The notes beneath the pieces are model-generated. The model did not search any database, had not been told where the DNA came from, and was given only the letters and a program-made list of their open reading frames with translations. A DNA stretch of 35,952 nucleotides, taken from IMG/VR virus record IMGVR_UViG_3300038548_000196, positions 1 to 35,952 of that record; one strand, written 5' to 3'. The position numbers were made by a program, and so were the translations under genes. Numbering within the stretch: the stretch's first letter is position 1; each line of letters starts with the position of its first letter. Source of the DNA: a virus. Below are positions 294-34,158 of the stretch, one piece after another.

Positions 294-541
294 GTGATGT
301 TAATCCGCCAAAAAGAGGCGAAAAGATAAGCGAGCAGGGTAATATTGCTAAGGATTTTTCCGAGTATATCGAAAACATTTCGGAGATTCTAAGCTTCTTT
401 CAGGTTGGTGATGGTGATCCGACCGGTTCGCTGGTGACAAAGCGTAAAATGATTTTTCTAAGGCAAGACGGTGGCGCAGGCACAACCCTTTACATTAATG
501 AACTTGGTGACGGAACTTTTAACGGATGGCGTGCAATATGA
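290..541 (+). CDS. Small late protein in the gp26 position, function unknown
   Basis: 83 aa, starting in an ATGA overlap with the gp10-like gene and ending in an ATGA overlap with the gp14-like gene, so it is part of the tail/ejection operon. P22 has its needle gp26 (233 aa) at this place, but this protein is much shorter and lacks the long trimeric coiled coil. The C-terminal half (about residues 45-83) is rich in Gly, Asp and Thr with alternating hydrophobics, which suggests a small beta domain. It ends in a W-R-A-I tail. Structural role is inferred from position only. Confidence 0.75.
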   Translation: MSDVNPPKRGEKISEQGNIAKDFSEYIENISEILSFFQVGDGDPTGSLVTKRKMIFLRQDGGAGTTLYINELGDGTFNGWRAI

Positions 542-1883: not shown

Positions 1884-1884
1884 G

Positions 1885-2979
1885 ATGGCTAGTATATTAG
1901 ATCAATTTGTAAAGGCTAGAGGCGGATTGATTGGTCAAGCGGGCCAAGAGATTAGCCAGCAAGGCCAGCAAGCCGAACAGGATAGATTTTTAGAAACGTC
2001 TAATCTTCGATCCATTGGTATTGGTGCTTTAGAAGCGTTAGGCCAAACTGACCCAACATCACAAGACGCTTTGCTAACTCGAAGAATACAAGAGATTACT
2101 TCGCGCGGTGGCGATGCTAGAGATACTCAGGAAGCTTTAGATACTCCATTCGAGCAAAGACAAGGATTATTGCAAAACGCTGTACAGATAGCTCAGCAGG
2201 CTGGTGCATTAGGTGGCGCTGGCGCTGGAAATGTTCAATCAAGATTTGTTACTGACAAAGGCACTGTAGGATTAGTGTTTAGAGATGGTCGCGTTGAAGA
2301 CACGGGCGTTACTGTTCAAGAATCATTCGCTCTAACTGATGAAGGGTTAGCTTTTGGTCGAGGTAGTGGGCAATTAACCCAGCCCGGTCAACCATCTGAA
2401 GCTTTGACTTCTAAGCAAATTATAGAGCAGGAGCAATTAGCAAGAAGTAGAAAGGCAGAATCAGCAGCAGAAGAAGCAAGGCTAAAAACTAGAGCATCCG
2501 AAGAAAGCAAAGCATCCGTTAAAGCTGGTGAGCAAGCAGCAACCAACATAGTTAAAGTTGATAAAAGTATTGCGAATATTGACAGGGCTATCGACGCTCT
2601 TGATAAAGGCGCTAGAACGGGCGCTGTTCAGAGATTTTTGCCAAGCGTTAAGTCGGCAAGTGTTGAATTAGATAACATCCGAAACAGCATGGGTCTTGAT
2701 ATTATTGGCGCTGCTACCTTTGGCGCATTATCTGAAAGCGAATTAGAATTTGCCCTTTCCACGGCTATTCCTACAGGATTAAATGAAGCGGCATTAAAAG
2801 ACTTCTTAATAAGAAAGCGCGATGTTCAGAAGAAAGCTAGAGAAGCCTTAGCCAATGCGGCTAGAGAATTCAGTCAAGGCAAGACTAGAGCGCAATTATT
2901 AACATCACAAGAGGCGGCTAAAACCCCGTCCGGTCAGAGCTTTACTTCTAGCGCTGGCATTAAATTTACGGTGAAATAA
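1885..2979 (+). CDS. DNA ejection protein, P22 gp20-like position
   Basis: 364 aa, one base after the preceding stop and overlapping the next gene by TAATG. The N-terminal half is Gln/Gly rich. Residues about 175-240 form a charged, Ala-rich helical/coiled-coil segment. Residues about 255-340 hold a compact helical block with 'GAATFGALSESELEFALST' followed by 'TGLNEAALKDFLIRK'. This block recurs at the C-terminus of ejection proteins in many podoviruses (recalled, not searched). It would be packaged inside the head and released at infection to help DNA cross the envelope. Confidence 0.75.
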   Translation: MASILDQFVKARGGLIGQAGQEISQQGQQAEQDRFLETSNLRSIGIGALEALGQTDPTSQDALLTRRIQEITSRGGDARDTQEALDTPFEQRQGLLQNAVQIAQQAGALGGAGAGNVQSRFVTDKGTVGLVFRDGRVEDTGVTVQESFALTDEGLAFGRGSGQLTQPGQPSEALTSKQIIEQEQLARSRKAESAAEEARLKTRASEESKASVKAGEQAATNIVKVDKSIANIDRAIDALDKGARTGAVQRFLPSVKSASVELDNIRNSMGLDIIGAATFGALSESELEFALSTAIPTGLNEAALKDFLIRKRDVQKKAREALANAAREFSQGKTRAQLLTSQEAAKTPSGQSFTSSAGIKFTVK

Positions 2980-4991: not shown

Positions 4992-5000
4992 GAAAAGATC

Positions 5001-7277
5001 ATGGTAACTAAGACAATAGGCAGTAACTTCGCGCGCACAGATGACGAGTTATTAGTAACAACAAACCCTAATTATTCACAAGGCAGACTCGTTAGCGGTT
5101 CATCTGCCGTTGATGTTATTGTGGCCGATACTAATCCAGCCACAACGGTTTTAACTGATCAGCAGCAAATTACCATTGAGCTTGATCATGGTTCCAATAC
5201 CGTTATTTCTCCCACATTTCAATTAGGAACTACAGCGTCGAAAGCAATAGTTAAGAGGTCGAATGAATCTCTACAGCTAGGGGATACTGGCGGAACAGGT
5301 TATAGCTTAATTTTAAAGTTTAGCGCCGCATTGGATAAATGGGTACTTCTTAATCCAGCTTCAGAAGTAACTAATTATGCAAATCTGGTACAAGCTTTAG
5401 CAGGTTCTAATGCGGTATTAGATTTTGTTACTATTTCCGAACGTATTTCAGGCAAAGGGTTTGGTGGTGGACTTTATCAAGTTGTTTCTGCTGATCCGGG
5501 ATTTAACTTAATAAACCCAGCAAAAACAGACAGCAGCGGTAACTTCCTTAAATTAATTCTTAATTCTGCTGAAATTCTAGTTGAGCAAGCTGGTGCAGTT
5601 GGTGATTTTGATATTGATGCTTCACTTGATGCTAATGGAGTTGATACAGGCGTTAATACTGGAACCGTTGATACAGCAGCTTTCAACGAGTGTTTGGATT
5701 TTGCTACTGCTAATCTATTCGAAGCTATTGCTGGTAATCCAACAGGCACAAATAAGAATCTTAGAGCAGGATTCGGCGGCTTTAAAGTATCTACACGTGG
5801 AGGCGCTAATTACAAGATAGACGCTACCCTTACCCAAAAATCTAGAGTTCATTTAGATCTTAATGGCGGAAGTTTAGTTGCTGATAATACGGCTGTTTGG
5901 TCAACTCTAACAGGCCCTGTAGTTGATTTTATAACCGTTACCAATGGTGGTAGTTCATATACTCAAGCAACTGTATCAGTAGTTTTAACAGGTGGTGGCT
6001 TTTCAGAAACCGCAACAGCTACAGCTTTAGTGGCAAACGGAGCAGTAGTCAAAGTATTTCTAACTGATGATGGTGCAGGGTATACAAGCGCTCCTACAGT
6101 AACTATTAACGATTCTGGTTCTGGCACAGGCGCTACAGGTACATCCGAACTAATGACCCTGACCGACCCTCTAGTTAGCAGTATTGCGGACGCTAATTCT
6201 TTCACAGCATTTAGAGAGGGTGTAACGAACGGCTCATTATGGTGCAGAGCCATAACCGATGGCATTAGAATGCGCGTTGGTAAATCTCTAGAAACTAATA
6301 ATATTGATGTATTTAACAGTAAAACGTCTAGCTATGCGCTTCTCGGATGTGATAACAACACATTCTATAATTGTAATGGCCACTCAGGATTGAAATATTT
6401 AGTTTATGGGTCTTATGATTGGGATACCACCTCTACCATCTCATCTAATGAGAATGAATGGATAGGTGGGTCTATGTTTGGTGGTGATCGTGCGTCAGTA
6501 AGATGCGGAACTCAAGCAAATAACTGGAAATTCTCTAATACGGTAAGGCAGAGTTTCGATGGAAATACATTTGGACACGAATTCGTACTAGGCGGTGTAT
6601 CTACTGGGCATTCGATGCTAAATACAAAAATAGAGCATGATGGTGATAACCCTAACGCATCTATAGTTGTTTTAGGTGGGACAGGTCATGATTTGACATT
6701 TACCGCTGCGCCTAATGCTATAACTGTTTTTTATAAATGGGTGCAAAACGTAGGCGGCACTGATGTTCGAATAAAAATGATTGCTACTAGCACTGTGATG
6801 GACGGGAGAATAGTCAACCCTAATGCTGCCAATGACTTTAGCCCTTTTCAATCACAGCCTTTTAATGGTATTACAGTTTACGATGTTCCTTATGCAACAA
6901 TAGCGGATCTTAGCTCTTACTTTGATTGGTGCAGAGACTTAGACGGGCTAGATCAAGGTGGCTCATCTCAGTTTAATGGCTTTATTACCAAGCAAGGTCT
7001 ATTAGGATCTGGAATGTTAATGGGACCAATAGAGGCAGAGGTTAGCGGTAACGCTGTCTTAGGATTGCAGACTTATGTAGAAGGTGATTCTGTAGCGGCA
7101 TTCTCTGCAAGTGGTCAGGGTAATGTTGTTATGCGAGATTTTTCCGCTAGAAAGGGCAATATTGTTCAGCTCCAGGCTTTTGCTAATGATGCAGCGGCTA
7201 CCGGCGGAGGTCTTGTTTCTGGTGACTTATACGAAGTAGCAGCATCAGACCCTAGACAAGTAGCAATTGTTATCTAA
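5001..7277 (+). CDS. Tailspike/tail fibre with beta-helix and inserted beta-sandwich domain
   Basis: 758 aa, ATG after GGAAAAGATC. Residues 1-120 form a beta-rich head-binding/adaptor-like region. Residues about 125-230 resemble the lead-in of a pectate-lyase-type right-handed beta-helix ('GGGLYQVVSADPG', then a trimer-like 'VDTAAFNECLDFA'). The beta-helix continues to about residue 600. About residues 309-385 are a discrete insert with the motif 'VTNGGSSY...DDGAGYTSAPTVTI', a two-copy glycine-rich beta-sandwich unit common in fibre proteins. The C-terminus carries a small conserved-looking end domain. It probably binds and perhaps cleaves surface polysaccharide, as P22 gp9 does; catalytic residues cannot be picked with confidence. 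Confidence 0.8.
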   Translation: MVTKTIGSNFARTDDELLVTTNPNYSQGRLVSGSSAVDVIVADTNPATTVLTDQQQITIELDHGSNTVISPTFQLGTTASKAIVKRSNESLQLGDTGGTGYSLILKFSAALDKWVLLNPASEVTNYANLVQALAGSNAVLDFVTISERISGKGFGGGLYQVVSADPGFNLINPAKTDSSGNFLKLILNSAEILVEQAGAVGDFDIDASLDANGVDTGVNTGTVDTAAFNECLDFATANLFEAIAGNPTGTNKNLRAGFGGFKVSTRGGANYKIDATLTQKSRVHLDLNGGSLVADNTAVWSTLTGPVVDFITVTNGGSSYTQATVSVVLTGGGFSETATATALVANGAVVKVFLTDDGAGYTSAPTVTINDSGSGTGATGTSELMTLTDPLVSSIADANSFTAFREGVTNGSLWCRAITDGIRMRVGKSLETNNIDVFNSKTSSYALLGCDNNTFYNCNGHSGLKYLVYGSYDWDTTSTISSNENEWIGGSMFGGDRASVRCGTQANNWKFSNTVRQSFDGNTFGHEFVLGGVSTGHSMLNTKIEHDGDNPNASIVVLGGTGHDLTFTAAPNAITVFYKWVQNVGGTDVRIKMIATSTVMDGRIVNPNAANDFSPFQSQPFNGITVYDVPYATIADLSSYFDWCRDLDGLDQGGSSQFNGFITKQGLLGSGMLMGPIEAEVSGNAVLGLQTYVEGDSVAAFSASGQGNVVMRDFSARKGNIVQLQAFANDAAATGGGLVSGDLYEVAASDPRQVAIVI

Positions 7278-7570
7278 TGAATGAGCTTGAACTCTCCCAC
7301 TTCCTAATCCCTATAGCTACCTTATCGGCGGCTATCATGGGAATATGGAAGTTTTGGGATAAGATAGTAGCGTCAATTACTAAAGGTTTTGTGACTCACG
7401 AAGAATTAGAAATACATGACCGAAAAGTCAGGGAATACATTCTAAAAGAAGATGATAAGAACGATAAATACATTCAAACCATCGACGGTAAAGGCCAAGA
7501 GAATCGAGAAAAGATAGCTTACATAAAAGGCAACTTAGACGTTTTAAATAAGCTATTTATCGATGATTAA
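7277..7570 (+). CDS. Membrane-anchored coiled-coil protein (spanin- or XhlA-like), last late gene
   Basis: 97 aa, starting in a TAATG overlap with the tailspike stop. One hydrophobic segment (residues about 7-25, 'FLIPIATLSAAIMGIW') is followed by a basic stretch and a charged helix to the end (residues 40-97), with heptad-like spacing. This layout fits an inner-membrane protein with a long soluble coiled coil: an i-spanin (Rz) or an XhlA-type lysis accessory protein. Its end meets the minus-strand gene at 7567 tail to tail with a 4-base overlap. Lysis role is inferred. Confidence 0.65.
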   Translation: MNELELSHFLIPIATLSAAIMGIWKFWDKIVASITKGFVTHEELEIHDRKVREYILKEDDKNDKYIQTIDGKGQENREKIAYIKGNLDVLNKLFIDD

Positions 7571-7824
7571 AACCCAGCAGAAGCACCCACGGCGTTAACC
7601 ACGTCAGGATTCGATAGGAGCGTGGTTAGAGCTTGGTATATAACTGGATCAATAATACCTTTAGCGCTCAATACGGTTAAGATTACGCCTATTACAGTGA
7701 CCCATATCGGTACAGCCTTTTTAAGCTCTGATTTGTGAAAGTCTGAATTTTGCGGCTCGTTTGAGTTTGAGTTTATTTTTCTTGAAATTAACCCTAAGCC
7801 AATTTTTAAAAGTAGTGGATTCAT
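7567..7824 (-). CDS. Small membrane protein, possible holin
   Basis: 85 aa. There is a hydrophobic N-terminus (residues 3-13), a polar Asn/Ser/Lys linker, then a clear transmembrane segment (about residues 38-54, 'AVPIWVTVIGVILTVLSAKG') and a weakly hydrophobic C-terminal helix. It is the last gene of the minus-strand transcript carrying the endolysin and MazG-like genes. Small size, membrane segment and linkage to the endolysin allow a holin role, but two other holin candidates exist (9155-9328 and 21823-22044). Confidence 0.6.
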   Translation of the reverse strand: MNPLLLKIGLGLISRKINSNSNEPQNSDFHKSELKKAVPIWVTVIGVILTVLSAKGIIDPVIYQALTTLLSNPDVVNAVGASAGF

Positions 7825-8259: not shown

Positions 8260-8355
8260 TCACTTACCCCTAGTTAATTTCTTATCGCCTTTTATCAAAG
8301 CTTCTAATTTATTGATTTGCTTATTCTTCTTTGTCTTGCGTCGTCGTCTATGCAT
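8260..8355 (-). CDS. 31-aa highly basic peptide
   Basis: ATG at 8355 overlaps the endolysin stop (TAATG) and the TGA ends 2 bases before the MazG-like ATG, so it fits tightly between two genes. Sequence begins 'MHRRRRKTKKNKQ', continues with a short amphipathic helix and ends 'TRGK'. The AGGGG ribosome site of the downstream gene lies inside its coding end. It could be a real small nucleic-acid- or membrane-binding peptide or a coupling ORF. No family recognised. Confidence 0.5.
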   Translation of the reverse strand: MHRRRRKTKKNKQINKLEALIKGDKKLTRGK

Positions 8356-8738
8356 TAATACACCCACATAGTCAAATGACCCTTTGGCAGCTCTTCACGA
8401 TACCCCCAGTGGACAAAGGTTTTAGCCACACCTATTGCATTAAACCCTGCGTCAATCCCTGCCTGAACAATATTACCGCGATTAGATCCATTGCATGCTA
8501 TGTCGATACCGTTGCCTTTTTGATGGTCGGCTGGTGTAATTCTATGAACCTCATTTTTATGATAAGGGCATCTACCTCCGGAAGTAACTGAGCAGGGATC
8601 TCCTAAAATTTCACGTGCTACTTGGGCTCTATCCAAAGTTTCTTGGTTAACGCTTCTTTCGTCACATGCCATATTCAAACAAGTGCAAAGCAGCTTCTTA
8701 TCATATTTCGGATTAAAGTTCTTAGTTTGTATAGTCAT
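8355..8738 (-). CDS. Peptidase M15-family endolysin (peptidoglycan endopeptidase)
   Basis: 127 aa. It shows the M15_3 pattern: 'SGGRCPYH' (residues 53-60), His72 and Asp79 in 'DHQKGNGIDI', and His110 in 'FVHWGY', which together supply the zinc ligands. These enzymes cut peptide cross-links of peptidoglycan, usually as D-Ala-D-Ala carboxypeptidase or L-Ala-D-Glu endopeptidase. There is no signal peptide, so release across the inner membrane needs a holin. The ATG follows the upstream TAA directly. It is unusual for P22-like order that lysis genes lie on the early strand, away from the virion operon. Confidence 0.85.
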   Translation of the reverse strand: MTIQTKNFNPKYDKKLLCTCLNMACDERSVNQETLDRAQVAREILGDPCSVTSGGRCPYHKNEVHRITPADHQKGNGIDIACNGSNRGNIVQAGIDAGFNAIGVAKTFVHWGYREELPKGHLTMWVY

Positions 8739-8924: not shown

Positions 8925-9143
8925 TTACTCACCTATCCCGTTAATTGCTTTAATAACCTTCACAAGATCAAGGCTATCAACATTCTGAACTAGAACCTCT
9001 CTGCTAACATCTTCAGTTACCTCAAATTCTGGCGTGTATGCGTAGTCGGTCTCCGGCATGTCGTTAACTTTTTCCCATCTTCGGCCTCTCATAACCTTTT
9101 CTTGAGTATATTCAGTTATTACTATTTTAAATCGCTTGCTCAT
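8925..9143 (-). CDS. Hypothetical 72-aa protein
   Basis: Start preceded by GAGGGTGAG at good spacing. A basic N-terminal strand ('KRFKIVITEYTQEKVMRGRRW') precedes an acidic C-terminal half. No recognised domain. Tight spacing on both sides places it in the SSB-to-endolysin operon. Confidence 0.65.
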   Translation of the reverse strand: MSKRFKIVITEYTQEKVMRGRRWEKVNDMPETDYAYTPEFEVTEDVSREVLVQNVDSLDLVKVIKAINGIGE

Positions 9144-9328: not shown

Positions 9329-9367
9329 CTTATACCCCTTAATTAACGTTTATCTTCACCGCCGAAA

Positions 9368-9400
9368 GCCCGATTGAAGGAGCTTAAGACGGGCATCGGG
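9368..9400 (-). promoter_or_regulatory. Competing hairpins between ssb and the membrane protein gene
   Basis: GCCCG (9368-9372) pairs with CGGGC (9390-9394), while the overlapping CCCGAT (9369-9374) pairs with ATCGGG (9395-9400); the two stems exclude each other. On the minus-strand transcript the first stem is followed by only three U residues, so it is at best a weak terminator. It could attenuate transcription after ssb or protect the 3' end. Confidence 0.35.
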
Positions 9401-9419
9401 AGGACGCTAAGTCATTGAT

Positions 9420-9836
9420 TTAAAAAGGAATGTTCTGGTTAAACTCGTCATCAAAGTTATTAGCCGGTGTTTGCTGCTGAGTTCGCTGTATCGCTGCTTG
9501 CTGTTGAGGCGCTGCTTGCTCTTGTCGTGGCGCATATTGATTAATAGATCCAATCCAAGCGTCGATAAACTCAATACTATAATTACCGTTATACTCGCTA
9601 ATCTTCTGCTGCTTAGCTCCAATCTCGACTACTGCATTTTCTACCAATGCTTGGCGATAAAAGTCTGCCTGATTACCCGCTTTGGCAAATACAACGGCCT
9701 TATAATTTGTCCATTCCTTTTGCTTAGTAGCTCGGTCGTAATACTGTACGCCGCCGCCAATACCAAACCCTACACTTTCACCGGCTTGAAACTCATTTGC
9801 TGGTCTGTTTAATCTAATTGTGATGCCATGACTCAT
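9420..9836 (-). CDS. ssb: Single-stranded DNA-binding protein
   Basis: 138 aa. The N-terminal OB-fold-like region (residues 1-95) has the beta pattern of phage SSBs, with 'WTNYKAVVFAKAGNQADFYRQ' matching the 'w.f..fgk.ae.....lkKG' region and 'IEFIDAWIG' the last strands. A Gln/Ala/Pro-rich linker (96-128) leads to an acidic tip 'DDEFNQNIPF', which is the SSB C-terminal peptide that docks replication and repair proteins (E. coli DDDIPF). Gene neighbours Gp157 and a single-strand annealing protein form a recombination cassette. Confidence 0.85.
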   Translation of the reverse strand: MSHGITIRLNRPANEFQAGESVGFGIGGGVQYYDRATKQKEWTNYKAVVFAKAGNQADFYRQALVENAVVEIGAKQQKISEYNGNYSIEFIDAWIGSINQYAPRQEQAAPQQQAAIQRTQQQTPANNFDDEFNQNIPF

Positions 9837-9837
9837 A

Positions 9838-10317
9838 CTATTTAATCCTCAATGATGATTTACTTTTAATTAATTCCGCGCCTTCTACTTCGCCTTTCTT
9901 AAGCTCAGCTAAAAGCATTTTCTTATCTAGCTTAAAATCTTCTACCTTAATCATAAAATCGGAGGGAATATCAAGTAAGCTAGTAACATTAACTTTATCC
10001 CTACCTGCTACACATGAGATAGTAAACTTAGCGCTTTCTATCTTCTTCTTGCCAAGCTTCTCCATACTTAACCGTAGATACTCCCTGAGCTTCTCTTCTC
10101 TATACACTACGGCATCTGCTCGCTTATCCAGCCTATTAGCCTCATTCGCTAACATATCCGACTGAGCGCGAAGGTTTGCCAGCACATGGCATATAGCATC
10201 AGCCTTATCATCAAACTCACCCTCTAACGATTCAAGCGTATCGGCTAAAGTCTCCGCGTCTAGGTCCATGTTTTCTAATTCTCGATACTCTTCTGTTAAT
10301 TTATATAATGATGTCAT
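9838..10317 (-). CDS. Gp157-family protein
   Basis: 159 aa, start in an ATGA overlap with the annealing-protein gene. It matches the Siphovirus Gp157 pattern: acidic N-terminal helices, a central long coiled coil with 'ANLRAQSDMLANEANRLDKR', then 'REEKLREYLRLSMEKLGKKK', and a beta C-terminal part ending in 'KSSLRIK'. The family commonly sits beside recombinase and SSB genes; its biochemical role is not settled. Position here agrees. Confidence 0.8.
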   Translation of the reverse strand: MTSLYKLTEEYRELENMDLDAETLADTLESLEGEFDDKADAICHVLANLRAQSDMLANEANRLDKRADAVVYREEKLREYLRLSMEKLGKKKIESAKFTISCVAGRDKVNVTSLLDIPSDFMIKVEDFKLDKKMLLAELKKGEVEGAELIKSKSSLRIK

Positions 10318-11604: not shown

Positions 11605-11820
11605 ATGAATAAGGATACGGCAAGACGCATTCTAGGCGTTAAGAATAAAGGGCTAGCGGATCATTTAATGATGACCGAAGGCTCTGTTAGGAATATGCGA
11701 GACTTATCTAAGGCACAAGAGATGATGGTGATACTATATTATGATTTGAAGTGTGTTACGGCTGATAACGTGGCGCTACAGGATAAGCTTGATAGGCTTG
11801 TAAGATCGTTAGATTATTAA
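11605..11820 (+). CDS. Small putative DNA-binding regulator (Cro-like)
   Basis: 71 aa. Residues about 4-36 read as a helix-turn-helix: 'ARRILGVKNKGLADHLMMTE' followed by a recognition-like helix with 'SVRNMRDLSKAQEMM'. The C-terminal helix (about 50-71) could dimerise. It is the first gene after a promoter whose -35 box lies in a two-fold symmetric operator, the standard setting of an autoregulated phage repressor or Cro. Alternatively it may be a phage protein of another kind; the HTH call is by eye. Confidence 0.6.
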   Translation: MNKDTARRILGVKNKGLADHLMMTEGSVRNMRDLSKAQEMMVILYYDLKCVTADNVALQDKLDRLVRSLDY

Positions 11821-11856
11821 ACGAGCAATAACGCTCACAATAAAAAGGGTAATAAC

Positions 11857-12249
11857 ATGTTTGAATTTTTAAAGAATAAAGAAGTGGATAGTCTTAAAAG
11901 CAGAATTACATATCTCGAAGATAAAGAGCTTGTAGCACGCGAAGCTAAACGAATCGCTGAAGACCAGCTTGCAGAATTTAAGCATAAGACAAAGCTTGAG
12001 CAGGAAGATATTAAACACATGGTTAAGATGAAAGAAGAAAAGCAAGAAATTGAACTCGATAAGAAGAAAGTAGAATTAGAGCGAGAACACTTTAACAAGA
12101 TTGAAGTCGTTAAGGATGACTACCGCTTAAAGCTTGAAGATCTTCTTAAGAATCAAATCAAAGATGCTAAAGAGTCGCATCAAAAGCTTATGGAGCACAT
12201 GCCTAAAATCGAGGCTATGTTTAGCAATCAAGAAATAAAGAAGAGTTAG
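11857..12249 (+). CDS. 130-aa coiled-coil protein
   Basis: AAAAGGGTAATAAC precedes the ATG. Nearly the whole chain (residues 7-105) is a continuous Lys/Glu-rich heptad-like helix ('KSRITYLEDKELVAREAKR', then 'EKQEIELDKKKVELERE'). No catalytic motif. Such proteins may be structural or scaffold-like, or SMC-like adaptors. Function unknown. Confidence 0.7.
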   Translation: MFEFLKNKEVDSLKSRITYLEDKELVAREAKRIAEDQLAEFKHKTKLEQEDIKHMVKMKEEKQEIELDKKKVELEREHFNKIEVVKDDYRLKLEDLLKNQIKDAKESHQKLMEHMPKIEAMFSNQEIKKS

Positions 12250-12251
12250 GT

Positions 12252-12470
12252 ATGGCTATTAGAGGAGGTTTTGCTCAGGAAACGGGTTTAGCAGGAGCAT
12301 TCGGCGCTCAGCATCAACAAGCGGCATTAATGGCTGGCTACAGAGGTCAAGCGGCAATGGGCGGCCTATCCGGTGGGCTAGGTGGTCTTATTTTCCAAGA
12401 ACCTAAACCCAAAACCTATAAAGATGAGCTTCAGGAAGAAATTGACGAGTGGCTAGAAGATATTAAATAA
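12252..12470 (+). CDS. 72-aa Gly/Ala-rich protein with acidic tail
   Basis: Starts two bases after the coiled-coil gene. Residues 1-48 are Gly/Ala/Gln rich and resemble in composition the ejection protein at 1005-1883 ('GGFAQETGLAGAFGAQHQQ'); residues 50-72 form a charged helix ending 'EEIDEWLEDIK'. It is odd to find ejection-like composition inside an early-type block. It might be a virion protein gained by transfer, or a membrane-active peptide. Function unknown. Confidence 0.6.
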   Translation: MAIRGGFAQETGLAGAFGAQHQQAALMAGYRGQAAMGGLSGGLGGLIFQEPKPKTYKDELQEEIDEWLEDIK

Positions 12471-12480
12471 GGGTAATGAT

Positions 12481-12657
12481 ATGAATGAATTCAAAGTAGG
12501 CGACTTGGTAAAAGTTAAAGGCGAGAATGTAGTAATTGAGATTTATTCAATAGGGGATAGCTGTATTTTTGATAAAGATGGCTGGTCGTATGATGCTGAA
12601 ACTATATCCCCATACAAGGGCGCTATAAGCGTGTTTAAGGGTGATAATGATGAATGA
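12481..12657 (+). CDS. 58-aa protein with small beta-barrel look
   Basis: ATG at 12481 follows AAGGGTAATGAT. The pattern 'FKVGDLVKVKGENVVIEIYS' followed by 'CIFDKDGWSYDAETISPYK' is that of an SH3-like/KOW-type small barrel, common among tiny phage proteins. It overlaps the next gene. No function assigned. Confidence 0.65.
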   Translation: MNEFKVGDLVKVKGENVVIEIYSIGDSCIFDKDGWSYDAETISPYKGAISVFKGDNDE

Positions 12658-12976
12658 CGACTGGGCCTCAAAAGCCTATCAACAGATCATAGACGCCGGT
12701 AAAGACTGGGCAGATAAAGACGCGGCGGCTAAGTTTCTGGACGATACGCGAAAGCCTATGCTTGCTCAGATAACTAATACAATGGAAGGAGGCGGGCAGA
12801 CGGCTAAAGAATCTAAAGCCCGCGCTCATCCTGATTATAATGAGCATTTAGTTAAGCTTAAGACCGCAAGAAAGGAGGCTAACCTATCTCGAGTTAAATA
12901 CGATGCTGCTAAGACACTGGCCAGCTTAAGACAAACACAAGAGAGCCTTAAAAAGGCTGAGATGGGGTTACGATAA
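12647..12976 (+). CDS. Hypothetical helical protein, about 109 aa
   Basis: Two adjacent ATGs at 12647 and 12650 follow AAGGG; either may be used. The protein is highly helical and charged: 'SKAYQQIIDAGKDWADKDAA' near the N-terminus, then a lysine/alanine-rich C-terminus ('EANLSRVKYDAAKTLASLR', 'QTQESLKKAEMGLR'). Likely folds as two or three helices. Ends in TAATG overlap with the next gene. Confidence 0.65.
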   Translation: MMNDDWASKAYQQIIDAGKDWADKDAAAKFLDDTRKPMLAQITNTMEGGGQTAKESKARAHPDYNEHLVKLKTARKEANLSRVKYDAAKTLASLRQTQESLKKAEMGLR

Positions 12977-13170
12977 TGAAGGCTAAAAAAGTAGGGTTGA
13001 GAGATGGGGGCTGCAACTTTTGCACGCCTAATTACAAAGGTGATAAAACTGTTTATCAATATGATACCGTTTACCAAATAAGCAAAATAAAAGGGTATGG
13101 CTTAACGGCTACTATATGCCAGCCATGTATAGATTCTTTGAATAGACAAATAGCTGAGGATAAATCATGA
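12976..13170 (+). CDS. 64-aa zinc-ribbon-like protein
   Basis: Two CxxC pairs at residues 13-16 ('CNFC') and about 49-52 ('CQPC') can bind one zinc. The start is in a TAATG overlap and the end in an ATGA overlap. Small zinc ribbons in nin-like regions are often nucleic-acid or protein adaptors; no specific role. Confidence 0.7.
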   Translation: MKAKKVGLRDGGCNFCTPNYKGDKTVYQYDTVYQISKIKGYGLTATICQPCIDSLNRQIAEDKS

Positions 13171-13292
13171 GCGAATACCAGCGAACACTTAAAAAGAGAC
13201 AAAAATACTTAAACTGGACACTTACGGCTTATAAGGTATTACTAGCGGTAGGCGTTGTTGTATCGATAGCATGGTTAATATGGGGTAAATAA
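13167..13292 (+). CDS. 41-aa single-pass membrane protein
   Basis: ATGA overlap with the zinc-ribbon gene, TAATG overlap with the YbcO gene. Basic N-terminus ('QRTLKKRQKY') precedes one transmembrane segment (about residues 20-39, 'TAYKVLLAVGVVVSIAWLIW') ending GK. Topology N-in by the positive-inside rule. Function unknown. Confidence 0.65.
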   Translation: MSEYQRTLKKRQKYLNWTLTAYKVLLAVGVVVSIAWLIWGK

Positions 13293-13576
13293 TGGCTAAG
13301 ACAACTAAAATAAGACAATCAGCAAGGGGTGAAGACTGCGCGTTTAGGTTTCCTGATGTGTGCAACTTTAACCCAGAAACAACAGTGCTATGCCACGTAA
13401 ACACTAAATATAAAGGATGGGGTTTAAAATCCCCTGATTTATTTGCCGCGTATGGCTGTTTTGACTGTCATCAATACCTAGACTCTAATAGCGGTGCAGA
13501 TCCACAATCTGTTATGGATGCTGTTTTCGAGACTCAATATAAACTTATGGAAAAGGGGTTAATTAAAATTGTCTAA
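13292..13576 (+). CDS. YbcO-family (DUF1364) nuclease-like protein
   Basis: 94 aa. It shows the diagnostic opening 'IRQSARGEDCAFRFPDVCN', then 'PETTVLCH', 'KGWGLKSPDLFAAYGC' and 'CFDCHQYLD', with Cys/His residues suited to zinc binding. The family, from lambdoid nin regions and the DLP12 prophage, is thought to be a DNA nuclease related to NinG/HNH-like recombination functions. Its position next to a PD-(D/E)XK protein supports a recombination or junction-processing role. Confidence 0.85.
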   Translation: MAKTTKIRQSARGEDCAFRFPDVCNFNPETTVLCHVNTKYKGWGLKSPDLFAAYGCFDCHQYLDSNSGADPQSVMDAVFETQYKLMEKGLIKIV

Positions 13577-13886
13577 ACATAGAAGAGCGGCGAAAGTCGA
13601 TGCAAATCAAAATGAAATAGTAGCAACACTAACCAAGCAGTATGGTTTATCCGTATCGCTAAATCATGACGATATTTTAATTGGATATAGAGGGAGAACC
13701 TATTGGTTTGAAATAAAAGACCCTGAAACAGCATTCAATAAGAACGGTACATTCAAGAAGGGCGCTATAAAGCCAAGTCAGGAAAAGTTAAAAGCTGAAT
13801 GGAAGGGTCACTATGAAATTGTATGGACTGTTCAAATGATACTTGAGAGCATCGGTGTACAAAAGCGTTTAGCTGAGATAGACTAG
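13569..13886 (+). CDS. PD-(D/E)XK nuclease-like protein, possible junction resolvase
   Basis: 105 aa with a TTG start at 13569, about 10 bases after AAGGGG and overlapping the YbcO gene by 8 bases. The nuclease core is visible: Glu16 in 'QNEIV', Asp34/Asp35 in 'NHDDILIGY', and E48-I-K50 in 'YWFEIK', followed by 'IKPSQEKLKAEW' with Gln71. This order (E...D...ExK...Q) fits VRR-NUC or archaeal-Hjc-like phage nucleases that replace RusA/Rap in nin regions. Exact specificity cannot be told. Confidence 0.7.
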   Translation: MSKHRRAAKVDANQNEIVATLTKQYGLSVSLNHDDILIGYRGRTYWFEIKDPETAFNKNGTFKKGAIKPSQEKLKAEWKGHYEIVWTVQMILESIGVQKRLAEID

Positions 13887-13924: not shown

Positions 13925-13960
13925 CTAACAGTCTCATTCCTGTTAGGGGCTTTCTCTTTT
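13925..13960 (+). terminator. Terminator between convergent genes
   Basis: CTAACAG (13925-13931) pairs with CTGTTAG (13940-13946) across an 8-base loop, followed by GGGCTTTCTCTTTT. It ends the plus-strand island. The stem also lies just past the stop of the converging minus-strand gene at 13959, so it may act in both directions. Confidence 0.75.
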
Positions 13961-14123
13961 ATATCGTTATAAATCTGCTCATAAACTCAGCATCTGCTTT
14001 CATATCTTCTGCTTGCTGAATAAATACGGCCTCTTGTTTTCTGATTCTCTCCTTAAATGCCTTCATGTCATCCTCAGTAACGGGTTTGTCATTTATCATC
14101 AATATTAATTCTTCTATTGTCAT
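13959..14123 (-). CDS. Hypothetical 54-aa helical protein
   Basis: ATG at 14123 overlaps the upstream stop (TAATG). The chain is helical and charged ('MTIEELILMINDKPVTEDDM', then 'FIQQAEDMKADAEFM'). It is the last gene of the right-hand minus operon before the convergent terminator. No family recognised. Confidence 0.6.
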   Translation of the reverse strand: MTIEELILMINDKPVTEDDMKAFKERIRKQEAVFIQQAEDMKADAEFMSRFITI

Positions 14124-14254
14124 TATTTCCCCTTATGCCTTCTGGCAAGTTTACCTCTAATAGCCTGTAGCTCTAATTCAGCACACATCGGCATGTGACA
14201 TTTAACAAAGTATCTGTATTTCTTAATCGACCAACTAACTGATTTCTTATCCAT
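14123..14254 (-). CDS. Hypothetical 43-aa basic protein
   Basis: Starts at 14254 after AAGGGG that is held inside a hairpin (14257-14295). Basic, with two Cys ('KCHMPMC') and an Arg/Lys-rich end ('GKLARRHKGK'). It could bind nucleic acid; no family known. Confidence 0.55.
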   Translation of the reverse strand: MDKKSVSWSIKKYRYFVKCHMPMCAELELQAIRGKLARRHKGK

Positions 14255-14801: not shown

Positions 14802-14995
14802 GTTATCTCCTGATTAATGTTATTTACTTCCTGATACTCGTTAACTACCTTCGCATATTGCCCTAACTGATTAGCTAACTCTGTCTTCTCTAGCTGCAAT
14901 TGATCGCAATACTTCTCAAGCCTTTTATAATCGTCATAGTAAACAGTTGAGCGCTTGCCGGATTTATGGTTAATGGTTGGTATTGGTTTAATCAT
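14798..14995 (-). CDS. Hypothetical 65-aa coiled-coil protein
   Basis: ATGA overlaps at both ends. Residues about 18-63 form a helix with heptad-like leucines ('YKRLEKYCDQLQLEKTELAN'). The N-terminus is basic and extended. Function unknown. Confidence 0.65.
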   Translation of the reverse strand: MIKPIPTINHKSGKRSTVYYDDYKRLEKYCDQLQLEKTELANQLGQYAKVVNEYQEVNNINQEIT

Positions 14996-15219
14996 ACGTC
15001 CTCCATTGAAAGCTTGATGCTGTAAATATCTAAATCATTTCTTTCTGATAAGTCATTAATATATTGGTCGAAGTCTATCAATTCAGATTTAGAATCCCTT
15101 AAAACCCATCTACCACCAAAGCTATTGCCATGAGGAGTCTTACCTTTATGCTCTCGCTTTATTTGGTGTCCGCATTCGCTTGAGTAATTACCCTCTTTAT
15201 CCTCTGAAAACTTAATCAT
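14992..15219 (-). CDS. Hypothetical 75-aa protein
   Basis: Overlaps the downstream gene by ATGA and the upstream winged-helix gene by 8 bases. Contains 'FSEDKEGNYSSECGHQIKRE', a Gly-rich middle and an acidic tail. No family recognised. Confidence 0.65.
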   Translation of the reverse strand: MIKFSEDKEGNYSSECGHQIKREHKGKTPHGNSFGGRWVLRDSKSELIDFDQYINDLSERNDLDIYSIKLSMEDV

Positions 15220-16992: not shown

Positions 16993-17744
16993 GAGTATTT
17001 TCTTTCCTTGTTGCTGTTGTAAGTATCTATCTTGATTAGAAAGTCAAAAGAGGCTTTCCAGCTTGAATGATCACCACCGCGAGCGGCATCACCTTGGAAG
17101 AATCCAATGCTTGAACAGTAATCAAAATACCGTTCCCAATGCTCAATGTTATTAGTGTGATTCTTCTCGAGCTCGTTATCAGTATCTAAATTCCATAATT
17201 TTTTGATAGCTGACTTTCGCTTTGAGCTCCATTGCTTAGAAGGAACTAAACCAGCGTTACCAGTAGGCTCAGAATAATTTTTCTCATAGGCATCAGCGAT
17301 AAGCTGATAAGGAATATCTTTCTTAGTTATTGTTTCTTTATTCTTAGTTCTTAGTTCTTTATTGGCATTGCCTTCGCTATGCGTTCGCATTGCATTCGCA
17401 TCACCCTTTAAAGCTTTGTTTTTTAAAGACTTTTTATCCCATCTAGCGTTTGCAGCACTCTTTGCCTTCTCGCTTCGTGTTCTATACTTCTCTATTTCAT
17501 CATTTACTTTAGAGTGATAGTAGCCATCATCTTGAGTTATAAAAAACTCCTGCAATACGTCTGCAATGCGTTCGCATTCCGTTCGCATACGGATTAATTT
17601 GGCTATTTGTTTGATGTCGATCGGTAGAGGTTCTTCGTGTAAATAACACCAATCAAGCATTCTTCGATAAGCTAGATCTTCTAAATCGTCTAGGTGCGAA
17701 GTGTGGCTTAGATAGTTTGATACATTGAAGTTATAGAAGTGCAT
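16989..17744 (-). CDS. Replication initiator-like protein with DUF1376 domain
   Basis: 251 aa. Residues 1-85 match the DUF1376 pattern: 'MHFYNFNVSNYLSHTSHLDD', 'DLAYRRMLDWCYLHEEPLP' and 'FFITQDDGYYHSKVNDEIEK'. Residues 86-140 are a low-complexity Lys/Asn/Ala linker ('RTRSEKAKSAANARW'). Residues 150-251 are a C-terminal helical domain of the kind that contacts the helicase. DUF1376 proteins commonly precede DnaB or DnaC genes in phages. Its coding DNA contains 11-bp-phased repeats that look like an origin, and the start codon lies behind a leader that can hide its ribosome site. Confidence 0.8.
   Translation of the reverse strand: MHFYNFNVSNYLSHTSHLDDLEDLAYRRMLDWCYLHEEPLPIDIKQIAKLIRMRTECERIADVLQEFFITQDDGYYHSKVNDEIEKYRTRSEKAKSAANARWDKKSLKNKALKGDANAMRTHSEGNANKELRTKNKETITKKDIPYQLIADAYEKNYSEPTGNAGLVPSKQWSSKRKSAIKKLWNLDTDNELEKNHTNNIEHWERYFDYCSSIGFFQGDAARGGDHSSWKASFDFLIKIDTYNSNKERKYS
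17371..17440. repeat. Putative origin: iteron cluster 1 and adjacent AT-rich stretch
   Basis: Units of 11 bp begin at 17374 with TCGCTATGCGT, TCGCATTGCAT and TCGCATCACCC, so TTCGCAT recurs one helical turn apart. Bases 17379-17401 match 17566-17588 at 21 of 23 positions. Immediately next is an A/T-rich stretch (about 17405-17440) with runs of T and A that could melt. Origins inside the initiator gene are known from lambda O and P22 gene 18. Confidence 0.55.
17551..17591. repeat. Putative origin: iteron cluster 2
   Basis: Four 11-bp units in a row: TGCAATACGTC, TGCAATGCGTT, CGCATTCCGTT, CGCATACGG. The core ATGCG-TT-CGCAT (17566-17577) is also two-fold symmetric. The same DNA word as cluster 1 is read in a different frame of the protein here, so the similarity is not due to the protein sequence. 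Confidence 0.55.
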
Positions 17745-17840
17745 ATAGAAACCTTGTTTATGTAATCCTTGTTATTTGAAAGTAGGGCGGTGCTAAACAA
17801 GGAAAGCAGAATCAGGGATCAATCCGATTCGTTTACCGCC
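17742..17840 (-). promoter_or_regulatory. Structured leader with mutually exclusive stems over the initiator ribosome site
   Basis: On the minus-strand RNA, GGCGG-TAAAC-GAATC-GGAT (17840-17822) can pair in order with ATCC, GATTC, GTTTA and CCGCC (17819-17786), making 19 base pairs with bulges. The GTTTA used there is part of CCTTGTTTA (17802-17794), which is perfectly complementary over 9 bases to TAAACAAGG (17760-17752). That second segment holds the AAGG ribosome site seven bases before the ATG at 17744. A near copy, TAACAAGG, lies at 17774-17767. Opening one stem therefore exposes or hides the start of the replication gene. Confidence 0.6.
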
Positions 17841-17853
17841 AACGCGTATTGTA

Positions 17854-18993: not shown

Positions 18994-19183
18994 TATGATC
19001 ATCCTTTAAAATGTTAGCTGGGTGAATACTTCTCTTTATGCATGTCTCGCCCCATTTAACTACAGGTATCTTTTCGTTTAGAATATTAGATACAAACCCA
19101 ACAACGACGCCTTTTTCACCACTTCCAGTTAAGATTTCGTTTTTTATTACTTGATCGCCAATTTTACATTCTGATATGTTCAT
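18986..19183 (-). CDS. Hypothetical 65-aa SH3-like protein
   Basis: Beta-rich, with 'CKIGDQVIKNEILTGSGEK' and 'GVVVGFVSNI', then 'KIPVVKWGETCIKRSIHP'. The pattern G-D-x-V...G-V-V-x-F...P-V-V-K-W is that of small SH3/KOW-like barrels. Overlaps both neighbours. Function unknown. Confidence 0.65.
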   Translation of the reverse strand: MNISECKIGDQVIKNEILTGSGEKGVVVGFVSNILNEKIPVVKWGETCIKRSIHPANILKDDHNG

Positions 19184-19629
19184 TATGATTCCCCTCTGAT
19201 TGATTCAAGCGCATTGCTAACTAATTCACATACTTCATTAGGAATTAGATTTTCCAAATCGCCAATATCTAAATCCTCAGTATGATTAATCCAATTCCAC
19301 TTAATGGCCTCTTTAAGCGCCTTTTTTAACTGTATAATCTCATCACCAAAAGCGACACAAGTTTTAATCAAGTTCTGATTACCTGACTCAACAACTTCGC
19401 GGTGCATTCTATGCTGCTCGGCCTTTTCTTCTAACTCATCTCTCTCTTTAATAACGTGCTCAAGAGAAAACATTAAAGCTTTTTTTGTTTCCAAGTTAGC
19501 GGACCAATCCGCCTTAAGCTCTCTCACCTCATCAATAAGCGCTAGCCTTTCCTGCTCAACGTTAACTGCTTTATCCATAACATCACCGACCAAGTTGCTC
19601 TTATCCTGATTATCTGTTTCAAAGCTCAT
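19183..19629 (-). CDS. 148-aa coiled-coil protein
   Basis: Start set at the ATG at 19629, nine bases after GGAGG; further upstream codons would run through the previous gene. Residues about 20-90 are a long charged coiled coil ('EQERLALIDEVRELKADW', 'EHVIKERDELEEKAEQHRMH'), and the C-terminal part is acidic and helical ('NLIPNEVCELVSNALES'). Resembles ead/Ea-type small phage proteins. Function unknown. Confidence 0.65.
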   Translation of the reverse strand: MSFETDNQDKSNLVGDVMDKAVNVEQERLALIDEVRELKADWSANLETKKALMFSLEHVIKERDELEEKAEQHRMHREVVESGNQNLIKTCVAFGDEIIQLKKALKEAIKWNWINHTEDLDIGDLENLIPNEVCELVSNALESIRGES

Positions 19630-19852
19630 TATCGCCAGCCTCCCAATCCAAAAACACACCGCAACACATGGGGCGATCAATTCCTTGATTGATATAATGC
19701 CAATCGCAATCCATTAGCTGGTTGATTTTCATAATATCTAACGCCTCTCTAAACCCTTTTAACTGTCTATTATTTGCGTAATGCTCGCTTTCTGTTTTCG
19801 AGTTATTAACCGCTTCTACTAGCTTGATATGCTTATCTATAAATTTGCTCAT
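19619..19852 (-). CDS. Hypothetical 77-aa protein
   Basis: Helical N-terminus ('KHIKLVEAVNNSKTESEHYA'), and a C-terminal segment 'DCDWHYINQGIDRPMCCGV' with three Cys and one His that might bind metal. Overlaps the downstream gene by 11 bases. Unknown family. Confidence 0.6.
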   Translation of the reverse strand: MSKFIDKHIKLVEAVNNSKTESEHYANNRQLKGFREALDIMKINQLMDCDWHYINQGIDRPMCCGVFLDWEAGDNEL

Positions 19853-19855
19853 AAA

Positions 19856-20050
19856 TTACCCCTTGGCTCGTCGTTCGTTAACTTCATTAAGTCTCTTAGC
19901 CTTCTCTCTAGCCTCTCTATGCTCTGCTAGCTCATCCGGTACAATCACACTATCTCGATACGTTATAGGCCACTGGCAGTTAATACATTCCTCTGACAGC
20001 GATACTTGGCTTATTGGTAAATCTCCGCAGTGTTTACAGTTCCAAATCAT
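19856..20050 (-). CDS. 64-aa zinc-ribbon protein
   Basis: CxxC pairs 'CKHC' (residues 5-8) and 'CINC' (about 22-25) form a rubredoxin-like zinc knuckle at the N-terminus, followed by a charged helix ('AEHREAREKAKRLNEVNERR'). Start in an ATGA overlap with the 45-aa gene. Probable DNA- or protein-binding adaptor. Confidence 0.7.
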   Translation of the reverse strand: MIWNCKHCGDLPISQVSLSEECINCQWPITYRDSVIVPDELAEHREAREKAKRLNEVNERRAKG

Positions 20051-20356: not shown

Positions 20357-20548
20357 TTATTCCTCGTTAAAGTATGGGTGGGTTAATTCAAAGTCTTCTA
20401 TCTGGTCAAGTGCGTCTAATTCACTAAAGGCCGTACCGCATAGCACTTCAGTATCGCAATTGTCTTTGTGCCAAAAATCATAGTCATAAGCCCTTAGTGG
20501 TATTGGCTTAGCGCTTAATTGTATGGTCCATCCGTCTGGTAATTTCAT
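20357..20548 (-). CDS. Hypothetical 63-aa protein
   Basis: Small acidic protein with 'LPDGWTIQLSAKPIPLRA' and a helical C-terminus ('SELDALDQIEDFEL'). AAAGGATC precedes the ATG, and a GC hairpin lies just upstream of that site. No family recognised. Confidence 0.6.
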   Translation of the reverse strand: MKLPDGWTIQLSAKPIPLRAYDYDFWHKDNCDTEVLCGTAFSELDALDQIEDFELTHPYFNEE

Positions 20549-20580: not shown

Positions 20581-20808
20581 TTAAAAGTTTATTAAAGTTA
20601 CATTAAGCGAATCACTATCAACTCTTTTAGCTAAGTAGCTGCTAAGTGATTTATTTGCCTGCTCGCAGTCGCTATGAAGCTCGCCTTCACCAAAAGAAAA
20701 TGTTTTAACTGTTCTTTTCTTGTTGATGTAATAGATACCCGATTTAGCGTCCGCGTCTATGTAGTCTCTGTCGTCACTCATTGTTAAGTTAATTATTAAA
20801 GCTTCCAT
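20581..20808 (-). CDS. Hypothetical 75-aa protein, first gene of the early leftward operon
   Basis: Start set at the ATG at 20808, nine bases after AAGGG; the ATG at 20814 is only three bases from it. The same spacing (GGGGTAAGTGATT-ATG) is seen before the MazG-like gene at 8257. Sequence 'IYYINKKRTVKTFSF' is beta-like, and the rest mixed. It is the first gene after the leftward promoter, so expressed first; early host-takeover function is possible but unproven. Confidence 0.6.
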   Translation of the reverse strand: MEALIINLTMSDDRDYIDADAKSGIYYINKKRTVKTFSFGEGELHSDCEQANKSLSSYLAKRVDSDSLNVTLINF

Positions 20809-20851
20809 AATCATTTACCCTTTAGTTTGTGTGCCTTGATTCGATGAAGTG

Positions 20852-20879
20852 ATAATACATCATATGACTTGTCATGTAA
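20852..20879 (-). promoter_or_regulatory. Leftward early promoter
   Basis: On the minus strand TTACAT (20879-20874), 16 bases, TATTAT (20857-20852). Transcription would start near 20845, about 37 bases before the ATG at 20808. An inverted repeat lies in its spacer. Confidence 0.6.
20864..20875. promoter_or_regulatory. Operator-like inverted repeat in the early promoter
   Basis: ATGAC-TT-GTCAT (20864-20875), 5-bp arms with a 2-base centre, lies between the -35 and -10 boxes of the leftward promoter. A dimeric regulator bound here would block that promoter. Candidates are the HTH proteins at 22597, 11605 or 20171. Confidence 0.5.
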
Positions 20880-20881
20880 TG

Positions 20882-20923
20882 TTTAAACGCGACAATAATC
20901 ATTTAATTTAAACGTGATAGAAT
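20882..20923 (+). promoter_or_regulatory. Rightward late promoter with direct repeats
   Basis: TGATAGAAT (20915-20923) is an extended -10 match (TGnTATAAT with one change); the -35 region is poor, as often in activated or extended -10 promoters. Two direct repeats, TTTAAACGCGACA (20882-20894) and TTTAAACGTGATA (20907-20919), agree at 11 of 13 positions, 25 bp apart. They could bind an activator, or a protein acting on early elongation. Confidence 0.55.
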
Positions 20924-20965
20924 TAGCCCTCAAATAAACTATAAATGAAACTTTAAAACTCGTGT

Positions 20966-20988
20966 CCCCTCTCACAGGGGCTTTTTTT
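20966..20988 (+). terminator. Terminator in the leader of the late operon
   Basis: CCCCT (20966-20970), loop CTCAC, AGGGG (20976-20980), C, then seven T. It lies about 40 to 60 bases after the predicted late start and four bases before the ATG at 20993. A terminator placed between late promoter and late genes is the hallmark of Q-type antitermination control in lambdoid phages. Confidence 0.75.
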
Positions 20989-20992
20989 ATCT

Positions 20993-21214
20993 ATGGATAT
21001 AACCAAAGTAATACTTAAGTACGATGATCTATTTCAGCTTATAAAGGCTGGTATGACAGATGAGGAAGTGGAGTGGTTACTAGATGAGTTTAATAATGTT
21101 ACAATTGATTTTCTATTGAATGCTACAAAGCAATTTCCAAACCTTAAGGATTATGTAAATGTCTGCCGACAAGAAGAAGAGAGTAAAGAAAAAGAAGCCG
21201 ATGAAGGTAGCTAG
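20993..21214 (+). CDS. Hypothetical 73-aa protein, first after the late leader
   Basis: The ATG at 20993 follows the terminator U tract by four bases and has no good ribosome site of its own; an ATG at 21053 after AAAGG is an alternative start (shorter protein). Acidic: 'EEVEWLLDEFNNVTIDFLL' then 'ESKEKEADEGS'. The 3' end overlaps the polybasic gene, and an acidic/basic pair of adjacent proteins could interact. Confidence 0.6.
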   Translation: MDITKVILKYDDLFQLIKAGMTDEEVEWLLDEFNNVTIDFLLNATKQFPNLKDYVNVCRQEEESKEKEADEGS

Positions 21215-32297: not shown

Positions 32298-32319
32298 AGG
32301 GGGTTTCGGCCCCCTTTAT
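32298..32319 (+). terminator. Terminator after the coat gene
   Basis: AGGGGG (32298-32303) pairs with CCCCCT (32310-32315) across TTTCGG, then TTTATC. The gap between the coat stop and the next gene is 61 bases. It probably ends part of the transcripts so that coat is made in excess over the downstream tail genes. Confidence 0.8.
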
Positions 32320-32855: not shown

Positions 32856-33610
32856 GCAATGTTATAAGTAAATCCTCAAACAAAGGCAGTGATTATTTTA
32901 TTGATGTCGTATTGGGCCGAATAGCTGGCTTTTCAATGGCGACTATAAACGGCGTTAATACCTCGTTATCCTCTTCATCTGAAGATATTAGCGACCAAGG
33001 CGGAACAGTAACGCCGCTAAGTGTGGCAGGTTCTTTTGAGCTTGTTACATCTGGCAATGATACGGTAGCAGGTACAGGCGTTCAGTTTGTAGCGATAACC
33101 TTTTTAGATGCGGATTGGGAACCTGTAACGGTAATTAAAGCCACAACAGGCGGCACATCTGCCATTACTGGTAGCTTCTTGAGATGCGTTTCTATTATTG
33201 GCATTCAATCGGGGACTCTTAATTGGAATGACAACATTGTCGATGTTCAAGTTGCAAGCGGCGGACAGGTTCATTTAAGAATGAGTCCAGCAAACAACAG
33301 TTCATTTCCTGCTTTCTACTCAGTACCGGCGGGAAAGACAGCGCGAGTCGTTAATGTTGCAACCTTTGTTGCTAAGAATGATGAAATACAATTCCAACCT
33401 TATTTGATTGGGCAAAACGGAAACTTTATTTCTGGCCAGCCTATCCCTTTATTTGAAGGTAGCGTTAACCAAAGATTATTTACCCCTTTCCCCATTACTC
33501 AGAAGCAAGACTTTGTTTTTAGGGGTGAGACTTTAAGCGCGGGCAGTGCTAACGTGTCGATTATTGCGGAAATATTACTCGAAGATGTTCCAGTAACGGC
33601 GAATCCATAG
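32852..33610 (+). CDS. 252-aa beta-rich virion protein, function unknown
   Basis: ATGA start. Throughout rich in beta-strand patterns and Ser/Thr/Gly ('GSFELVTSGNDTVAGTGVQF', 'QVHLRMSPANNSSFPAFYSV', 'ANVSIIAEILLEDVP'). No coiled coil or membrane segment. Between coat and gp4-like, it may be a decoration or head-tail accessory protein. No P22 counterpart recognised. Confidence 0.65.
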   Translation: MSNVISKSSNKGSDYFIDVVLGRIAGFSMATINGVNTSLSSSSEDISDQGGTVTPLSVAGSFELVTSGNDTVAGTGVQFVAITFLDADWEPVTVIKATTGGTSAITGSFLRCVSIIGIQSGTLNWNDNIVDVQVASGGQVHLRMSPANNSSFPAFYSVPAGKTARVVNVATFVAKNDEIQFQPYLIGQNGNFISGQPIPLFEGSVNQRLFTPFPITQKQDFVFRGETLSAGSANVSIIAEILLEDVPVTANP

Positions 33611-33618
33611 GGTATAAA

Positions 33619-34158
33619 ATGAGTCAAACAATAGGTTTCATAGTCGATCGAGCTTTTTCGATAGCCAAGATTAAAAAGGGCAATATCGACATTGAAGACG
33701 AGGAAATGGCAATAGGCATTGATACCTATAACGACATTATAACTCAGTTTGGTATTGACGGTATTAGCCTAGGCGCGACCATTGTTAGCTCTAAAGATGA
33801 TGAAGCTGATGTGCCTGACTGGGCTAACGAGATGATTAAGACCCAAATAGCCTTAAGACTTCTTGACGAATTTAACCGACCTCTAACCGTGGTATTGTCC
33901 GAGCGTGCCGATAGAGCTTTGCGCGCAGTGATGAGAATGGTTAGTCGACAAAGAGGTTCAGCATTCCCGAGCACTTTGCCAGTTGGTACAGGTAATTATT
34001 CAAGTTCTAGCTCGCGTCGTTTTTTCCCTAACAGAGATTGCGGGGACATTACAGGCGGCAATGGTGATTTCATGCTTGACGATGAAGGCCATGTAATACA
34101 AGACGATAGCAGCTGTGCAGGCGCTAACATTTCATCAATTGGAGATTCTAATGGCTAG
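33619..34158 (+). CDS. P22 gp4-like head-to-tail adaptor
   Basis: 179 aa (P22 gp4 166 aa). Helical N-terminus 'QTIGFIVDRAFSIAKIKKGN', 'DTYNDIITQFGIDGIS', then 'EMIKTQIALRLLDEFNRPL' and 'RALRAVMRMVSRQRGSAFPS', the pattern of P22 tail accessory factor gp4. It forms the ring below the portal onto which gp10 and the tail assemble; P22 gp4 also has muramidase activity, not evident here. The C-terminus is extended by a Ser/Gly/Asp-rich tail. Confidence 0.8.
   Translation: MSQTIGFIVDRAFSIAKIKKGNIDIEDEEMAIGIDTYNDIITQFGIDGISLGATIVSSKDDEADVPDWANEMIKTQIALRLLDEFNRPLTVVLSERADRALRAVMRMVSRQRGSAFPSTLPVGTGNYSSSSSRRFFPNRDCGDITGGNGDFMLDDEGHVIQDDSSCAGANISSIGDSNG

Follow-up and report, generated by a model that had tools for sequence, protein, structure and literature searches.

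The closest described system is the late control of Salmonella phage P22, which consists of the promoter PR', the terminator tR' and the antiterminator of gene 23. The annotated P22 record places the late promoter at 37852-37880, the RNA start at 37887 and tR' at 37917-37945, which gives a 59-nt RNA. Among the three known Q families, no significant similarity in sequence exists (PMC7171158). The promoter of phage 21 has two direct-repeat subsites to which Q21 binds (PMC6606751). AlpA of Pseudomonas aeruginosa, an antiterminator whose sequence is not homologous to Q, loads at a site between -35 and -10 (PMC7969949, PMC9371919). One of the promoters under its control, PA0807, has its terminator beginning 26 bp past the start (PMC7969949).

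We then compare with these systems a region in the window, i.e., the whole stretch of DNA analysed here, a linear virus record from IMG/VR that is 35,952 bases long. Its terminase, portal and coat genes belong to families including those of P22-like phages. According to the gene listing, genes on the minus strand fill two stretches, one from 20814 to about 14123 (including a helicase and a DUF1376 gene) and one from 11302 to 7567 (with SSB-type and recombination-type genes and the M15 endolysin), a plus-strand operon occupies 11605-13886, and the late operon starts at 20993 on the plus strand and continues at 93-7570. The first-pass annotation had put all virion genes downstream of the control region on the plus strand; this holds for the virion genes, including those at 93-7570, while the M15 endolysin at 8355-8738 is on the minus strand. 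In fact, this endolysin (Peptidase_M15_3) and a short ORF at 7567-7824, also on the minus strand, are inside the early-strand operon, and L085 likewise has a lysozyme-like ORF after SSB. Lysis therefore seems to be outside the control of the plus-strand late promoter.

The control region sits within the 178 bp separating the divergent early and late operons. On the plus strand, an extended -10, TGATAGAAT, is read at 20915-20923 (TG-A-TAGAAT), in which TAGAAT matches the -10 consensus in 5 of 6 positions with TG in front. The hairpin follows after 42 bases at 20966-20980, with CCCCT at 20966-20970, the loop CTCAC and AGGGG at 20976-20980. Seven T occupy 20982-20988, and after ATCT the ATG of the first late gene is at 20993, so that the T-run ends 4 bases 5' of it. 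All these elements are read directly from the sequence where the first-pass annotation had placed them. Two direct repeats, TTTAAACGCGACA at 20882-20894 and TTTAAACGTGATA at 20907-20919, are likewise read directly. The first of them is contained in a block at 20878-20898, which is a candidate loading or activator site, and the second in a block at 20904-20926, where it overlaps the extended -10 and no -35 element is found. With the start taken 7 nt past the -10, the predicted leader RNA covers 20930-20988, and the predicted intrinsic terminator (5-bp stem, 5-nt loop and T7) covers 20966-20988. In the leader there are also TATAAA at 20940-20945, a possible -10-like pause element at about +11, and a three-codon ORF without Shine-Dalgarno at 20945-20956 (ATG AAA CTT TAA). 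The first late gene, at 20993-21214, has 73 aa, and its codon use is coding-like from the first codon, which supports translation from 20993. On the minus strand, the divergent early promoter block is at 20815-20863, with a predicted -10 TATTAT at 20857-20852 and the early gene starting at 20814.

Within the window alone, the terminator exceeds chance, which is not so for the promoter or for the direct repeats. The window contains one perfect stem with 5 bp or more, 4 or more of them GC pairs, and with T7 behind it; a dinucleotide-shuffled window is expected to contain 0.05. When the local 178 nt are shuffled, such a stem-plus-T7 terminator appears at a frequency of 0.0005. The folding energy of the hairpin (-7.3 kcal/mol, z -0.76) is weak. 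As to what this terminator could otherwise serve, there is no plus-strand gene in the upstream 7 kb, and the plus-strand operon ending at 13886 carries its own terminator just after it, with the end near 13958. By a sigma70 matrix, an equal or higher score is reached in 858 of 1000 local shuffles, so the promoter alone is weak; the pattern TGNTA[TG]AAT appears in 24 of 1000. The direct repeats are matched by 55 of 300 shuffles and are thus not significant alone. TATAAA is not distinguishable from AT-richness, since a 5/6 match is reached by 23% of shuffled leaders.

A pattern search for the repeat plus -10 matched three contigs, one of which, L197 (on contig G405, 22,665 bp, IMG/VR), is a real relative, and its orthologous control region supplies the decisive evidence. 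The segment 20806-20986 is 80% identical overall between the two. Both TTTAAACG repeats and the extended -10 are kept in 42 of 44 bases (20/21 in the block of repeat 1, 22/23 in that of repeat 2), against 8 of 14 just upstream of repeat 1 and 12 of 29 where the first late gene begins. The early promoter block keeps 45 of 51 columns and the leader part 20927-20965 keeps 35 of 39, with TATAAA kept and the three-codon ORF identical. The repeat pitch is 25 bp in the window and 36 bp in L197, and the 11-bp insertion between the repeats amounts to about one helical turn. CCCCT/AGGGG in the window corresponds to CCCTC/GAGGG in L197, where 5 of 5 pairs are kept, two of them through changes on both sides. 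Slid versions of the structure are worse, with 30-70% of cells paired, and the shuffle control reaches the hairpin pairs in 118 of 500, which with two sequences only is not decisive. The T-run is kept as well (T7 in the window and T6 in L197), with the start codon right behind. This conservation, between two sequences, indicates that these parts of the control region are under constraint. It also led us to reject two other elements, an alternative promoter TTGTCA-GACAAT at 20869-20896 with a better matrix score, whose -35 is lost in L197, and an inverted repeat ATGACTTGTCAT near 20863-20874, which is not conserved there.

Behind the terminator, the gene order looks alike in the window and G405, namely small, Lys-rich, membrane-type and small protein, with a similar-sized first gene in the same place (L197 9467-9694). 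BLAST draws no link between the first late-operon proteins of the window and those of G405. The terminase and portal of G405 differ in kind from those of the window, while the control region is orthologous. A control region remaining constant while the neighbouring proteins and the virion module change would be the expected look of a late switch. No relatives were obtained when sought through the proteins at 20993, 21341 and 20581. A terminase scan of GTDB genomes gave one Aestuariibacter locus and one weak match without a comparable region, and the pattern search in 395 genomes of the Aestuariibacter order gave none.

Compared with P22, the predicted RNA of the window is also 59 nt, and its hairpin begins from about +35, against 30 nt after the RNA start in P22. 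The differences are that the window has no gene 23/Q homologue and a divergent early operon in place of the Q gene beside the promoter, no -35, and a hairpin of lower stability than tR' (-16.4 kcal/mol) which abuts the first gene and seems to double as its Shine-Dalgarno, while tR' lies about 300 bp before gene 13. The likeness to AlpA at the alpB and PA0807 promoters consists in a candidate loading site between -35 and -10, a short distance from start to terminator and a weak terminator, the AlpA terminator tB being also weak (PMC9371919). However, the AlpA element GGGACGN5GGTA is absent from the window control region, and AlpA governs chromosomal cell lysis whereas the module here precedes phage late genes. 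With phage 21 the window shares two direct repeats at the promoter, but the repeat is TTTAAACG instead of TGAGCA, the spacing differs, and no PF06530 protein is present in the window. Among the features of a Q module (lambda, P22, 21 and 82), the sequence shows, by chance test and conservation, a predicted late promoter with a predicted intrinsic terminator between it and the late genes, and a conserved candidate repeat lies where the binding element is expected, between -35 and -10. The module would work like the P22 late module; we do not claim membership in the Q-controlled class, because neither a Q protein of the two testable families nor a Q gene beside the promoter was found.

On the whole, we give a probability of about one half to the reading that this is a late promoter-terminator switch of the P22 type, loaded by a phage factor, with antitermination as the most likely mechanism. 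The segment would be where the late operon is controlled. Host RNA polymerase would start near 20930 at the extended -10 promoter lacking a -35, and by default the terminator 20966-20988 would stop it after about 59 nt. Through the two TTTAAACG repeats, of which the first is just upstream of the -35 position and the second in the spacer beside the -10, a phage factor from the early operons would then be loaded at the promoter and would let the polymerase read through into the virion genes. As anatomy and conservation, the switch is well supported. The first-pass annotation had proposed a Q-type antitermination switch, of which the promoter, the immediate terminator and the first late gene stand by the anatomy, by L197 and by the P22 geometry, while the action of an antiterminator is what we infer. 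Its proposal that the repeats are the loading site gains weight, because they are conserved with a spacing difference of 11 bp, about one turn; an antiterminator would then be what acts there.

The same repeats could also bind a phage or host activator that raises initiation, the weak terminator merely trimming the leak with no antitermination involved. The missing -35 element and the poor sigma70 matrix score would fit such an activator-controlled late promoter, as would conserved repeats with helical phasing. But a terminator kept by compensatory changes behind the promoter would cut the activated transcripts too, and the P22-like distance would be left without explanation, and we regard this as unlikely. 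Still less probable is that the terminator acts as an insulator against antisense or stray read-in, with the late promoter downstream, inside or after the first ORF. There is a matrix match with TG at 21100 (score 8.2); however, it is the promoter-side elements upstream that are conserved and not the DNA past the ATG, and the ORF is coding from its first codon, which makes this reading very improbable.

The hairpin itself calls for another explanation to be weighed. Many late genes in the window use AGGGG-type Shine-Dalgarno sequences. For the first late gene, no such sequence follows the T-run, and the best candidate is the 3' arm of the terminator (20976-20980). AGGGG is 12 nt before the ATG in the window and GAGGG 6 nt before it in L197 (GAGGG-TTTTTT-ATG). 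Probably, then, the 3' arm doubles as the Shine-Dalgarno for this gene, and the hairpin could both halt the polymerase and, on polymerase passage, hide the ribosome-binding site. Mainly because the ribosome-binding site probably lies inside the hairpin, we keep a purely translational switch among the readings, in which the hairpin hides the Shine-Dalgarno and the T-run is a spacer or a ribosome landing site, with no transcription stop. The stem of just 5 bp agrees with it, as do the best Shine-Dalgarno lying in the 3' arm in both phages and the 6-nt spacing in L197. Such a switch would nevertheless govern one small gene and not the operon. A conserved T-run right after a GC stem is a terminator signature while the spacing to the ATG is not conserved, and in two terminase relatives, G001 and G002, the Shine-Dalgarno is separate and located after the T-run. 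We consider this reading distinctly unlikely.

Returning to the switch loaded by a phage factor, we searched for a Q antiterminator. Six-frame searches (E up to 10) with PF06530 and PF03589 gave no match in the window or 12 related records, with the E. coli positive control detected. A six-frame search with PF06323 was without match, and its control was equally silent. Pfam-A hmmscan of about 30 window proteins gave no member of a Q family. The earlier statement that there is no recognised Q is thus borne out for PF06530 and PF03589 by controlled searches and not contradicted for PF06323, in the record as given, which may be incomplete. No Q gene is present directly upstream on the same strand, where instead a divergent minus-strand gene is located at 20581-20814. 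Since the Q families are mutually dissimilar (PMC7171158), an unrecognised Q would be expected rather than shocking, though hard to find. The protein at 8925-9143 was considered as a Q candidate by its position only, a homologue being directly before the G001 module, and was set aside as nothing further supports it. H6/1 gp46 carries the annotation termination/antitermination protein and matches no Pfam family. No AlpA-like chain is among the PDB sequence matches of seven candidate proteins, AlpA itself not being the query.

Because the switch is conserved and P22-like and has no recognisable antiterminator gene, the comparison suggests that phages with this site use an undescribed protein to turn on their late genes. 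As the site is common to the window phage and G405, a factor that binds the repeats should be conserved between them, and thus be encoded by one of their common early genes or in the part of G405 off the contig. The common early genes are 20357-20548 (97%), 19856-20050 (95%), 19619-19852 (99%), 19183-19680 (44%) and 14992-15219 (100% over 58 aa, at the contig edge), and none of the five has a Pfam, PHROG or PDB relative pointing to function. A tentative and somewhat doubtful extension is that a new, unrelated family of late antiterminators would act at the helically phased TTTAAACG repeats, with the terminator hairpin hiding the ribosome-binding site so that late transcription and translation would open together. 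If true, the family would serve phages with P22-like or other virion modules. A small conserved site, a relative keeping it across a change of virion module and few common early genes would make the search for the antiterminator simple.

Promoter-terminator pairs are also seen in terminase relatives. Across 28 loci with 150 terminators, a promoter scoring above the 99th percentile of random positions lies 20-60 nt upstream 7 times against 1.5 expected, although we judge two of the seven (L010 and L011) to be spurious, since their -10 coincides with a divergent gene's start codon, and not every locus is independent of the others. G001 (L015) has a TTGACA/TAAAAT promoter, 42 nt to the hairpin and then a weakly tail-fibre-like gene. 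G002 (L053) has a TTGACT/TATTAT promoter 44 nt before the terminator, and its first gene encodes a repressor-like protein, so its operon may not be purely late. In both, the promoters are near consensus and the terminator directly precedes the gene, a compact order like that in the window, which speaks for the switch reading. In addition, a hairpin GGGGGTTTCGGCCCCC plus TTT is found at 32299-32314 on the plus strand shortly behind the coat gene, and a terminator-like hairpin occupies the same position within the late operon of the relatives L005, L007, L014, H6/1 and AH02.

Several other elements were observed. The early promoter block at 20826-20863 on the minus strand (TATTATCACTTCATCGA) reappears in Drexlerviridae phages, where it lies in intergenic DNA ahead of genes, with a 23-nt identity upstream of a gene in one of them, and the L197 version is found in 136-kb Vibrio phages such as F88 (E 3e-6). 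By these matches, it is a promoter-like element common to unrelated phages. The leader of the DUF1376 gene at 17719-17853 (minus strand) has 135 nt that are 94% identical to L085 while the adjacent protein is 34% identical; it has no Rfam match and is possibly a structured leader or an origin element (fold z -1.49). An unlisted basic ORF of 43 aa at 14123-14254 on the minus strand (MDKKSVSWSIKKYRYFVKCHMPMCAELELQAIRGKLARRHKGK) has about 84% DNA identity in L085, with no family found. An intergenic element, CCTCCC.A.GCCCC...GGCTTT.TGGGTGAA, is at 9333-9420 on the minus strand and in L085 at 1-105 and 9790-9900, that is, after SSB in both phages and also before the first gene of L085. Finally, L082 (AH02) has at 33420-33850 an extended -10, TGGGTATAAT, right after a NinG-like gene, and some 400 nt further a terminator that precedes the next genes, which is possibly another late leader without a known Q.
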